Positions 3,741 through 34,537 of a stretch of DNA of 64,000 bases are shown here, in pieces (the stretch's first letter is position 1; each line of letters opens with the position of its first letter). Source of the DNA: Paludibacteraceae bacterium (GTDB lineage Bacteria > Bacteroidota > Bacteroidia > Bacteroidales > Paludibacteraceae); assembly GCA_031292565.1 (NCBI GenBank), contig JARLGW010000012.1:372001-436000 (forward strand), read 5' to 3'. The notes under the pieces were generated by a model that was not told the DNA's origin, did not search any database, and saw nothing but the letters and a program-made list of their open reading frames with translations. The position numbers and the translations under genes are program-made.

Positions 3741-3863
3741 AAAATACGGTAATTTTTTACAAAATTATTTTAAAGTAACGAACAACTCAAACTATAACGC
3801 TGTAATTTATTCTTTATTAGGAATTGTTTTTTTATTTCATGCTGGTTCTCTACTACATTTTCT

Positions 3864-3894
3864 TTTGATAAATAATTTATTAAGCGTAATTTTG
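3864..3894 (+). promoter_or_regulatory. Promoter of ileS
   Basis: TTTG, a 19-base spacer, then TAATTTTG: a textbook Bacteroidota sigma-ABfr promoter (TTTG-N19-TAnnTTTG). Transcription would begin around 3901, giving a leader of roughly 28 bases before the ileS ATG. Confidence 0.7.
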
Positions 3895-3928
3895 TGCGCT
3901 TAAAAAGAGAAGAATTACCAATTAAGAT

Positions 3929-31778: not shown

Positions 31779-32165
31779 ATGATCCTTCTTAAATATTGGA
31801 AATCGATACTGGTTTCGTGCGTTGTTTTTTATATCTCGGTTATCCCTATACCTCCGGTTAAAATGGTTGACCATATTCCCTATTTCGATAAGATGGTTCA
31901 TTTTGGCATGTATTTTACCCTTGCCTCCTCTCTGTTTCTCGATTTTATCAGTACCTCGCTCTCTTTATCCTGGATAAAAAAGGTAGCTCTTATTGTTATA
32001 ATCCCTTCTCTTTATGGCGGGCTGATTGAAATTCTGCAAGGAGCCTATTTCCCTCCACGAAGTGCCGAATGGAGTGATTTTTTTGCCGATTGTTTCGGGT
32101 CGTTAGTTGCCTATCTTATTTGCAACAAATGGCTGCTTCTTAAGCTGCAACGCGATTCTGCATGA
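31779..32165 (+). CDS. VanZ-like membrane protein
   Basis: A small membrane protein of about 128 residues with four predicted helices. The motif VDHIPYFDKMVHFGMYFTLASSL and the later GGLIEILQGAYFPPRSAEWSDFFADCFGSLVAYLI match the VanZ-like family, named after a teicoplanin-resistance accessory protein but mostly of unknown function. I choose the ATG at 31779, since the earlier ORF start lies inside upp. Its end overlaps dprA by four bases (ATGA). Confidence 0.85.
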   Translation: MILLKYWKSILVSCVVFYISVIPIPPVKMVDHIPYFDKMVHFGMYFTLASSLFLDFISTSLSLSWIKKVALIVIIPSLYGGLIEILQGAYFPPRSAEWSDFFADCFGSLVAYLICNKWLLLKLQRDSA

Positions 32166-33274
32166 TAGGCAGTACCCTTCAATACGAAATAGGGGTTACC
32201 CTAATTAAAGGTATTGGACCCGTGTTGGCAAAGAACCTGATTGCTTATTTAGGCAGTGCCGAAGCCGTGTTTAAAGAAACGCAGGCTAACCTGGCTAAAA
32301 TACCCGAAATAGGCCCCGTGCTATCCCGACAGATTGTGGATCAGCAGGTGCTTAAACGAGCGGAAAAAGAAATAGCATTCATCCAAAAGAATAATATTCA
32401 AACCTATTTTTATACAGATAAGGGCTATCCCTATCGGCTGAAGGAATGTACCGATGCTCCAGTGATACTCTACTCCAAAGGAAATGCGGATTTAAACGTA
32501 CTCCGTTTGGTTGGCGTGGTGGGCACTCGTAAGGTAACTGAGTATGGTAAAGATTTGTGCAATTCTTTTATAAACGATTTGGCGGCACTATCGCCCGGCA
32601 CTACGATTGTAAGTGGATTAGCCTACGGAGTTGACATTTGTGCACACAAAGCTGCCATAAATGCAAGCTTGCCCACTATTGGCGTAGGGCATGGGTTGGA
32701 TCGCATCTATCCGTTAAGCCACCGACCTACGGCTGTAAAGATGCTGGAACAGGGTGGCCTACTAACCGAATATCTTACCGAAACAAATCCCGACCGACCT
32801 AATTTTGTACAGCGCAACCGTATCGTGGCAGGTATGTGTGATGCCCTATTGGTAGTAGAGTCGGGCGAAAAAGGTGGTTCACTTATCACGGCCAACATGG
32901 CACAGTCCTACAACCGGGATGTATTTGCTTTTCCTGGCAGGGTAGGCGATGAGCATTCCATCGGGTGCAATGCTTTGATAAAAACCAATAAGGCGGGGTT
33001 GATAGAATCGGCTTCCGATTTTATCAATGCCATGGGTTGGGAATCCGTTGCTCACAAGAAACAGGCGGTACAGCCCAGCTTATTTTTTACTGATCTCAGC
33101 GAAGAAGAGCAACAGGTGGTGGATTGTTTACGCGAAGAGGCCGGCTTGCAATTAAATCAATTGGCTATTAACATGGGTATTGCTGTGAGTAAAGCGTCAG
33201 CGATGTTACTCGAAATGGAATTTAAAGGAATAGTAAAATGCCTTCCGGGAAGTTTGTACAAGCTAAGGGTATAA
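32162..33274 (+). CDS. dprA: DNA-processing protein DprA
   Basis: DprA loads RecA on incoming single-stranded DNA in natural transformation. The 370 residues have an N-terminal SAM-like helical domain (LIKGIGPVLAKNLIAYLGS), a Rossmann core (LVGVVGTRKVTEYGK, TIVSGLAYGVDICAHKAAI, FPGRVGDEHSIGCNALIKTNKAGLI), and a C-terminal winged-helix domain (LNQLAINMGIAVSKASAMLLEMEFKGIV). All are intact. It overlaps the VanZ-like gene by four bases. Confidence 0.96.
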   Translation: MIGSTLQYEIGVTLIKGIGPVLAKNLIAYLGSAEAVFKETQANLAKIPEIGPVLSRQIVDQQVLKRAEKEIAFIQKNNIQTYFYTDKGYPYRLKECTDAPVILYSKGNADLNVLRLVGVVGTRKVTEYGKDLCNSFINDLAALSPGTTIVSGLAYGVDICAHKAAINASLPTIGVGHGLDRIYPLSHRPTAVKMLEQGGLLTEYLTETNPDRPNFVQRNRIVAGMCDALLVVESGEKGGSLITANMAQSYNRDVFAFPGRVGDEHSIGCNALIKTNKAGLIESASDFINAMGWESVAHKKQAVQPSLFFTDLSEEEQQVVDCLREEAGLQLNQLAINMGIAVSKASAMLLEMEFKGIVKCLPGSLYKLRV

Positions 33275-33324
33275 ATTAGCCATAAGCCAACTATAATTCT
33301 CATCTAAATTTTAAGCGAAGTTGT

Positions 33325-33397
33325 ATAAAACAACAAAGCGAGCTAACCACGCTTGGCTGCTCGCTTTATAACCTTAAATCTAATACTATGAAAAACA
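33325..33397 (-). ncRNA. Candidate standalone small RNA between dprA and argC
   Basis: A TATCTTTG box on the minus strand (33403-33410) predicts transcription from about 33396. About 30 bases on comes a perfect nine-base hairpin AAAGCGAGC / GCTCGCTTT (33335-33367), followed on the minus strand by GTTGTTTTATA. Promoter and terminator are both on the minus strand, and no minus-strand gene follows before dprA, so this is not a leader. The 5' block GTGTTTTTCATAGTATTAG reminds me of recurrent Bacteroidota intergenic sequences, which I could not check. The dprA-argC gap holds nothing else I recognise. Confidence 0.5.
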
Positions 33398-33402
33398 CAG
33401 TG

Positions 33403-33410
33403 CAAAGATA
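33403..33410 (-). promoter_or_regulatory. -7 box of the candidate small RNA
   Basis: TATCTTTG read on the minus strand matches TAnnTTTG. The expected -33 position has only a TTTT-rich stretch. Confidence 0.5.
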
Positions 33411-33568
33411 ACGGGTTTTATGTTTTAAAACACTCTTATTTGGTTAACGATAGTTAATTCGATGTTTTATAACATACTTTCACAGTTACAACCGTTAGGT
33501 TTTATTAAAACAACTGATCGATAGTAAGTTGCATGAATTCCACTTTAATGCTAATTCTTAATTCCGTG

Positions 33569-34537
33569 TTAAAATGCGGAAGGTTTCAATTTCAGCCCGG
33601 TAGTTTCGTCCAACCCAAACAACAAATTCATGTTTTGCACCGCTTGACCGGCTGCTCCTTTTAATAAATTATCTATCATGGAAATGATGAATAGTTTATT
33701 CCCGTGTTTTTCTACATGTACCAAGCCTTTATTCGTATTTACCACCTGTTTCAAATCAATATTGCTATCCGAAACAAAAGTAAAAGCTGCATCGGCATAA
33801 AAATCCTTGTACAGTTTTGTAGCCTCATCCAAGCTTAAATCGCAATCGGTGTAAGCCGAAACAAATATTCCACGGGCAAAATTACCTCTCACGGGAATAA
33901 AGTTGATAGCTGCCTTGAAATCGGGTTGTAATTGTTTCACTGATTGTGTAACTTCACCTAGGTGCTGGTGCTCAAAAGCCTTATAAACCGAAATGTTATC
34001 ATTCCGCCAGCTAAAATGCGAGGTACTCGATGGCTTCTGTCCGGCTCCGGTAGAACCCGTTATCCCGTTTACATGCACTTCCGAGGTTAGCAAGCCTGCT
34101 TTTGCCAAGGGTAGTATAGCCAACTGAATAGCCGTGGCAAAACAGCCGGGGTTAGCCACCCGTTGAGCCTTTTGTATGCGAGTCTTGTTTAGTTCGGGCA
34201 GCCCGTACACGAAACTGTGTTCGGGGTTTTCCTGCCGATAGTCGGTAGATAAGTCCACGATCTTTAACCCTTCGGGAACAACGTTGCTGTCCAAAAACTT
34301 TTTCGTGTCACCATGAGCTGTGCAGAAGAACAGCACATCAATGTCCTCAAAAGGAAGCTTATCGGTGAACACCAAATCCGTTTCACCAATCAGTCCCGTG
34401 TGTACCGAGGTTATTTTATTCCCGGCGTTGCTATTGCTATTCACAAATGTGATTTCCACGCTAGGATGGTTAATCAGCAAGCGTAGCAATTCGCCGGCTG
34501 TATATCCTGCACCTCCTATAATTCCTACTTTTATCAT
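33569..34537 (-). CDS. argC: N-acetyl-gamma-glutamyl-phosphate reductase
   Basis: This NADPH enzyme performs the third step of arginine synthesis. The 322 residues begin with the Rossmann motif VGIIGGAGYTAGELLRLL. The catalytic Cys is in ANPGCFATAIQ, and HLGEVTQSV plus FIPVRGNFARGIF follow the family pattern. No other arg gene is adjacent: it is followed by a noncoding gap and preceded by trmD, so this argC is isolated from its usual partners. Confidence 0.96.
   Translation of the reverse strand: MIKVGIIGGAGYTAGELLRLLINHPSVEITFVNSNSNAGNKITSVHTGLIGETDLVFTDKLPFEDIDVLFFCTAHGDTKKFLDSNVVPEGLKIVDLSTDYRQENPEHSFVYGLPELNKTRIQKAQRVANPGCFATAIQLAILPLAKAGLLTSEVHVNGITGSTGAGQKPSSTSHFSWRNDNISVYKAFEHQHLGEVTQSVKQLQPDFKAAINFIPVRGNFARGIFVSAYTDCDLSLDEATKLYKDFYADAAFTFVSDSNIDLKQVVNTNKGLVHVEKHGNKLFIISMIDNLLKGAAGQAVQNMNLLFGLDETTGLKLKPSAF

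Follow-up and report, generated by a model that had tools for sequence, protein, structure and literature searches.

We identified, on the minus strand between dprA and argC of a Paludibacter-like bacterium, a gene that very probably encodes a small RNA of the FopS family acting by pairing with start codons; its promoter bears palindromes of the Crp/Cur type, and its seed finds a perfect complement at the start of xylE, which encodes the xylose transporter. The family is already known (PMC11697453) and the gene described here is a further copy of it; what appears to be new is the occurrence of the Crp/Cur motif in the FopS promoters of this lineage and, likewise, the perfect seed match at the xylE start.

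A scan against Rfam of the window (the whole stretch of 64,000 nucleotides that was analysed) returned a sole match above a family cut-off, to RF04319 (BTncRNA_FopS), which scores 60.6 bits against a gathering score of 56 and covers positions 1–71 of the 71-position model. The FopS RNAs ("family of paralogous sRNAs") were described in 2025 in B. thetaiotaomicron as 14 copies of about 65–70 nt (FopS-01 to FopS-14) that are bound by the RRM protein RbpB and whose extended R1′ seed pairs with the translation-initiation region, repressing the translation of SusC-like mRNAs; their promoters were reported to be canonical, with induction by bile salts, and their conservation was described within the Bacteroidaceae (PMC11697453). 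The first-pass annotation of this locus had proposed a standalone small RNA with its own promoter box, a transcript of about 70 nt and a nine-base hairpin with a tail, placed in the gap between convergent dprA and argC, and had guessed at a dispersed RNA family of the Bacteroidota. The box, the hairpin with its tail and the convergent genes are present as it described them, with a candidate transcript of 75 nt (Table 1), and its view that the RNA is not a leader agrees with the lack of a minus-strand gene downstream. The full-length FopS score and the dedicated −7 box bear out a standalone gene, while the Rfam scan that it suggested gives the guessed family a name, and the second copy and the spread in relatives, taken up below, attest its dispersal.

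Table 1. Elements of the FopS locus and its flanking genes, with positions in the window.
Feature	Position	Strand	Evidence
FopS sRNA gene, 75 nt (5′ single-stranded seed and intrinsic terminator)	33324..33398	-	RF04319; identical 29-mer in second copy
R1′ seed block GTGTTTTTCATAGTATTAGATTTAAGGTT, 29 nt	33370..33398	-	identical in both congeneric orthologs (G002, G003)
Rho-independent terminator hairpin, 16 pairs and one bulge	33333..33369	-	fold; 3 compensatory pairs vs G002/G003
U-rich 3′ tail	33324..33332	-	sequence
−7 box TAnnTTTG (TATCTTTG), putative sigma-ABfr promoter	33403..33410	-	consensus per PMC7366714
Proximal Crp/Cur-type palindrome GTGTTTTAAAACAT, 11/12, 9 nt upstream of −7 box, replacing −33 element	33420..33433	-	consensus TATGTTnTAnAACATA, PMC3878776
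Distal Crp/Cur-type palindrome ATGTTATAAAACAT, 12/12, 51 nt upstream of −7 box	33462..33475	-	motif match
dprA, convergent neighbour	32162..33274	+	TIGR00732
argC, upstream same-strand neighbour, 170 nt away	33569..34537	-	TIGR01850

The nine-base arms (AAAGCGAGC and GCTCGCTTT) lie within a longer stem, after which comes GTTGTTTTATA. A 77-nt version of the RNA folds at −26.0 kcal/mol (z −4.75, with none of 200 shuffles as low) and the 75-nt version at −22.9 kcal/mol (z −4.1 against shuffles); in the latter fold the R1′ seed is mostly unpaired, its last 6–7 nt being able to pair with the U-tail. The antisense of the seed includes a start-codon-like stretch (..ATACTATGAAAAA). For the host genome (G000) FopS RNAs of 66 and 75 nt are predicted, with a predicted 5′ start of GUGUUUUUC. 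A generic sigma-70 scan was uninformative for Bacteroidota; the −7 box of the window gene is perfect, and at −33 there is no TTTG, a palindrome being found instead.

The window gene parallels the B. thetaiotaomicron FopS RNAs in having a 5′ R1′ seed of 29 nt followed by a terminator hairpin, a predicted length of 65–75 nt, more than one copy per genome, a −7 box, an RRM gene in the same genome (a single one, RRM_1 and RbpB-like, at C3:5306-5515) and predicted pairing with the start codons of sugar-uptake genes. It differs from them in its Paludibacter-like host, which lies outside the Bacteroidaceae, in its two copies as against 12–15, in the Crp/Cur palindrome that replaces the −33 TTTG, and in its best predicted target, which is the inner-membrane transporter gene xylE rather than a SusC gene.

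The palindromes came to light in an alignment of ortholog promoters, upstream of the −7 box where the −33 TTTG is expected; both of those at the window gene had been overlooked in the first-pass annotation. Their motif, ATGTTnTAnAACAT, is identical at all 12 specified bases to the consensus TATGTTnTAnAACATA published for the Crp-family regulator BT4338 of Bacteroides on the basis of comparative genomics, a study in which xylRBAE is among the predicted targets (PMC3878776); searching the literature for the literal sequence of the palindrome gave no match, the motif appearing in that paper. BT4338 now goes by the name Cur and is the master regulator for the utilisation of carbohydrates (PMC10294740, PMC10994844), and the Cur-activated MasB offers a precedent for an sRNA in its regulon (PMC10994844). 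From related genomes we collected 83 distinct promoters of FopS genes, each with a TAnnTTTG box; the members of this set are not independent, and its palindrome-bearing groups span many genera. Of these 83, 33 match ATGTTnTAnAACAT at 11 or more of the 12 positions, where dinucleotide shuffles give 0.13 on average, and 22 match it perfectly, against 0.02 expected. The host genome has five exact palindromes, two of which are at its two FopS genes, with no match to a reversed-pattern control; at the window gene it is the distal site that is exact, and the copy on contig C6 has a perfect proximal site.

The spacing of these sites sets them apart from palindromes elsewhere. Distances from the palindrome to the −7 box in FopS promoters fall mainly into three groups (8–12, 41–43 and 51–52 nt), whereas non-FopS palindromes in the sequences that we examined peak at a distance of 33 (nine sites, including those of galK and of xylRBAE in the host genome), at which no FopS palindrome of at least 10/12 occurs among the promoters examined. 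FopS genes share with the known Crp/Cur regulon its operator consensus, and the regulon has the xylRBAE operon as a member, but FopS genes are not among the members given in PMC3878776 and PMC10994844. On these sequence grounds, we regard it as an evenly balanced proposition that FopS transcription in this organism is controlled by Cur (of the BT4338 type) through the promoter palindromes. We take the same middle position on the broader proposal that the Crp/Cur regulon directly includes the FopS sRNAs found outside Bacteroides, such that Cur would govern both sugar operons (here xylRBAE) and, by way of operators placed at distinctive positions in the promoters, the sRNAs that silence the same uptake genes (here xylE), as a Bacteroidota counterpart of CRP and Spot 42. 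An operator overlapping the −33 region would as a rule be repressive, and since the proximal palindrome stands where the −33 element is expected, we lean slightly toward the view that active Cur represses FopS from this site; the distal sites, at 41–52 nt, could serve in activation instead.

Exact palindromes of the host genome are also found away from FopS genes: one (L239, C3:56306) is near a gene for an LrgB-like membrane protein, another (L240, C5:267171) lies close to guaB and to a gene whose function is unknown, and a third (L241, C11:195557) is upstream of a SUMF1-like gene, as it is in the congener G003 (L252), all of these genes having been named by eye. At L242, L258 and neighbouring loci (in G004 and G009) palindromes lie upstream of genes for small secreted proteins of about 120 aa that begin with MKKIL, the locus in G004 having two of them 165 nt apart.

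The host genome supplies a candidate target. When searched at up to three mismatches, the seed complement TAACCTTAAATCTAATACTA occurs in it at the two FopS genes and at one further, exact site, a perfect 20-nt complement that lies directly upstream of the xylE ATG and ends at the start codon. The gene is assigned as the D-xylose transporter XylE by NCBIfam NF007484 and adjoins xylA (TIGR02630) on its upstream side, in an operon xylR(NrtR-like)-xylB-xylA-xylE (xylR and xylB named from sequence and gene order) that has a Cur-like site of its own, matching at 11/12 and at distance 33. The FopS–xylE duplex is predicted at −33.0 kcal/mol, as compared with −10.9 ± 3.1 for the ORF starts in the window, and none of 300 shuffled seeds did as well. 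A short-period repeat of TTTGTTC/TTTACTC units occupies part of the xylA–xylE gap (L003:1511-1630), just upstream of the FopS-complementary site.

The xylE match is peculiar to this organism. No 20-nt complement precedes xylE in 18 other genomes with a XylE relative, even where the protein is 77–82% identical (G025, G036, G026, G003), and the N-termini of the closest relatives align; apart from the xylE site, all seed matches at up to one mismatch in 61 genomes are FopS genes themselves. It follows from this absence that the untranslated region acquired the complement recently, either through selection or by way of a FopS fragment. The start of xylE is also the weak third match of the FopS model in this genome (C5:490215, 34.1 bits, below the cut-off), in reverse orientation. 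We considered and rejected the notion that the site is a degenerate antisense FopS gene, as neither a promoter box nor a convincing hairpin is present there.

These same observations feed the strongest competing explanation, namely that FopS is a genuine gene whose palindromes either represent a conserved part of the promoter or serve some regulator other than Cur, and that the xylE match is a functionless chance relic of an inserted FopS fragment. It is consistent with the assignment of Cur by consensus identity, with the species-specific nature of the xylE site and with the weak alignment of the FopS model there in the absence of a convincing hairpin. Against it, the agreement with the published Crp motif extends to every specified base, and in these genomes the motif also precedes galK and xylRBAE; furthermore, the match ends exactly at the xylE start codon, and the host genome offers no other non-FopS site within three mismatches. 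We treat this explanation as possible but on the doubtful side, and consider xylE, as far as the sequence can tell, to be probably a real target of FopS.

Other candidate targets are less distinctive. The seed pairs modestly with two SusC genes (−19.0 kcal/mol for L040 and −11.1 for L039), and among genome-wide target searches, which were pattern searches, the one for an 18-nt complement at up to three mismatches gave 10 non-FopS sites against 8 for the control, that is, no genome-wide excess. Four of those 10 sites have plausible start codons (of genes for an Lrp/AsnC-type regulator, two small membrane proteins and a lipoprotein) and good duplex energies with the FopS seed; we regard them as weak leads.

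The host genome of this system comprises 2.78 Mb in 15 contigs, and the nearest named DprA proteins, at 63–66%, are mostly from Paludibacter sp. and other Bacteroidales MAGs. Two genes in it score above the FopS cut-off, the second (C6:31311-31376) at 70.0 bits with an identical 29-mer; this 29-nt block occurs at exactly two sites in the genome, with none further at up to three mismatches and no control matches. In a phylogenetically uneven sample of relatives, the 20-nt core of the 5′ block was present in 61 of 120 related genomes as against one control match (the first-pass annotation had proposed a search with the 30-base block); FopS genes were found in 44 of 61 related genomes, usually in 1–5 copies, and in 25 of the 30 genomes of the named loci, again mostly from Paludibacter and other Bacteroidales MAGs. 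Judged by these sequence matches, the range of FopS extends past the Bacteroidaceae to Paludibacter-like bacteria and other families of the order.

Tandem clusters of 2–4 FopS copies a few hundred nt apart were seen in some relatives (L026, at G035:C4:192014-192809; L017; L020), which suggests local duplication. We also found exact FopS seed blocks in 17 viral contigs from IMG/VR (L192–L208), most of them with their own TAnnTTTG box and one (L194) with a Crp/Cur palindrome upstream of FopS. In L192 (IMGVR_UViG_3300001598_000289; 3819-3922) the seed block begins 2 nt 3′ of the end of a tRNA-Arg(TCT) on the same strand, lacks a TAnnTTTG box of its own and is followed by a hairpin and a T-run; the FopS RNA is here possibly released by tRNA 3′ processing. 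Another of these contigs, L193, resembles it, but ARAGORN finds no tRNA there.

Gene order and conservation bear on what kind of RNA the window gene makes. The congeners G002 and G003 retain the arrangement dprA-FopS-argC-trmD (with one extra ORF inserted in G003), and FopS adjoins dprA with other downstream genes in G005, in G047 from another family and in a Paludibacteraceae MAG from yak rumen (L102); it is absent from beside dprA in G001 and G004. The position of FopS on the argC strand, 170 nt after that gene, would allow for a 3′-UTR-derived sRNA processed from an argC/trmD mRNA, as B. thetaiotaomicron FopS-14 is from its parent mRNA; given that FopS here comes with a TAnnTTTG box and palindromes of its own, and that an argC neighbour is not common to other FopS loci, we consider such an origin very unlikely.

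The 29-nt block does not vary among the three congeneric orthologs and the stem is altered through three compensatory pairs, which, as read from these sequences, is the pattern expected of a terminator joined to a functional seed. The first-pass annotation had asked after covariation in the stem, which is thereby seen, and had named as its refutation a 5′ block lost from relatives while the hairpin persists; the two congeners present the opposite, an unchanging block and a diverging hairpin. The suggestion that the hairpin is a mere terminator, possibly bidirectional, of dprA and/or argC, with an incidental 5′ block, draws on its start about 60 nt past the dprA stop codon, on the lack of any other terminator found in the dprA–FopS gap and on the plus-strand reading of the hairpin followed by TTTATAACC. 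We rejected it as highly unlikely on the grounds that conservation is greater in the seed than in the stem; moreover, an identical 5′ block recurs elsewhere in the genome, at an unrelated locus with different flanking genes, and the full-length FopS score, dedicated −7 box and palindromes likewise speak against it. That the RNA is GibS (RF04182), which shares the R1 seed at its 5′ end and whose model gives 36.5 bits at the same start, is hardly conceivable, being rejected on score against a gathering threshold of 115 bits, with an aligned 3′ part that is unrelated, a terminator straight after the seed and neither the R2 element nor the long 3′ part of GibS.

The hairpin of the FopS gene may, for its part, double as the dprA terminator. 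No separate dprA terminator was found in 33275-33369; readthrough from dprA across the hairpin would yield an mRNA with a perfect FopS antisense, and such an mRNA could act as a FopS sponge.

In the mechanism that we propose, the FopS RNAs of 66–75 nt would pair by their 5′ end with translation-initiation regions and block translation, as in B. thetaiotaomicron, and the RRM protein would counter this block, as the work in that organism leads one to expect. With xylE as the outstanding predicted target, the circuit would run from Cur to FopS and from FopS, by repression, to xylE: active Cur would switch the xyl operon on and FopS off; when Cur is inactive, FopS would be made and silence the residual xylE mRNA, the net result being a feed-forward loop. 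In E. coli, CRP represses spf, and its product Spot 42 represses genes for non-preferred sugars, forming feed-forward loops (PMC3295665). By analogy, we infer that the Cur/FopS/xylE circuit would work like that of CRP and Spot 42, with a putative Crp-family regulator placed over an sRNA that represses the uptake and catabolism of non-preferred sugars. The two RNAs have no sequence relation, and the Rfam scan of the window gave no Spot 42 match; FopS further differs in being multicopy and RbpB-associated, and its control by Cur is here a prediction, which could take either sign.

Among the post-transcriptional brakes on glycan uptake known from gut Bacteroidota, FopS is the principal one. PMC11697453 describes its upstream regulator as unknown; the Crp/Cur operator in its promoters proposes one on sequence grounds. 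The xylE site, in turn, is a strong candidate for a FopS target outside the SusC class. If the proposal is true, the transcriptional and RNA layers of carbon-source choice would be joined in one feed-forward circuit of the CRP/Spot 42 kind.
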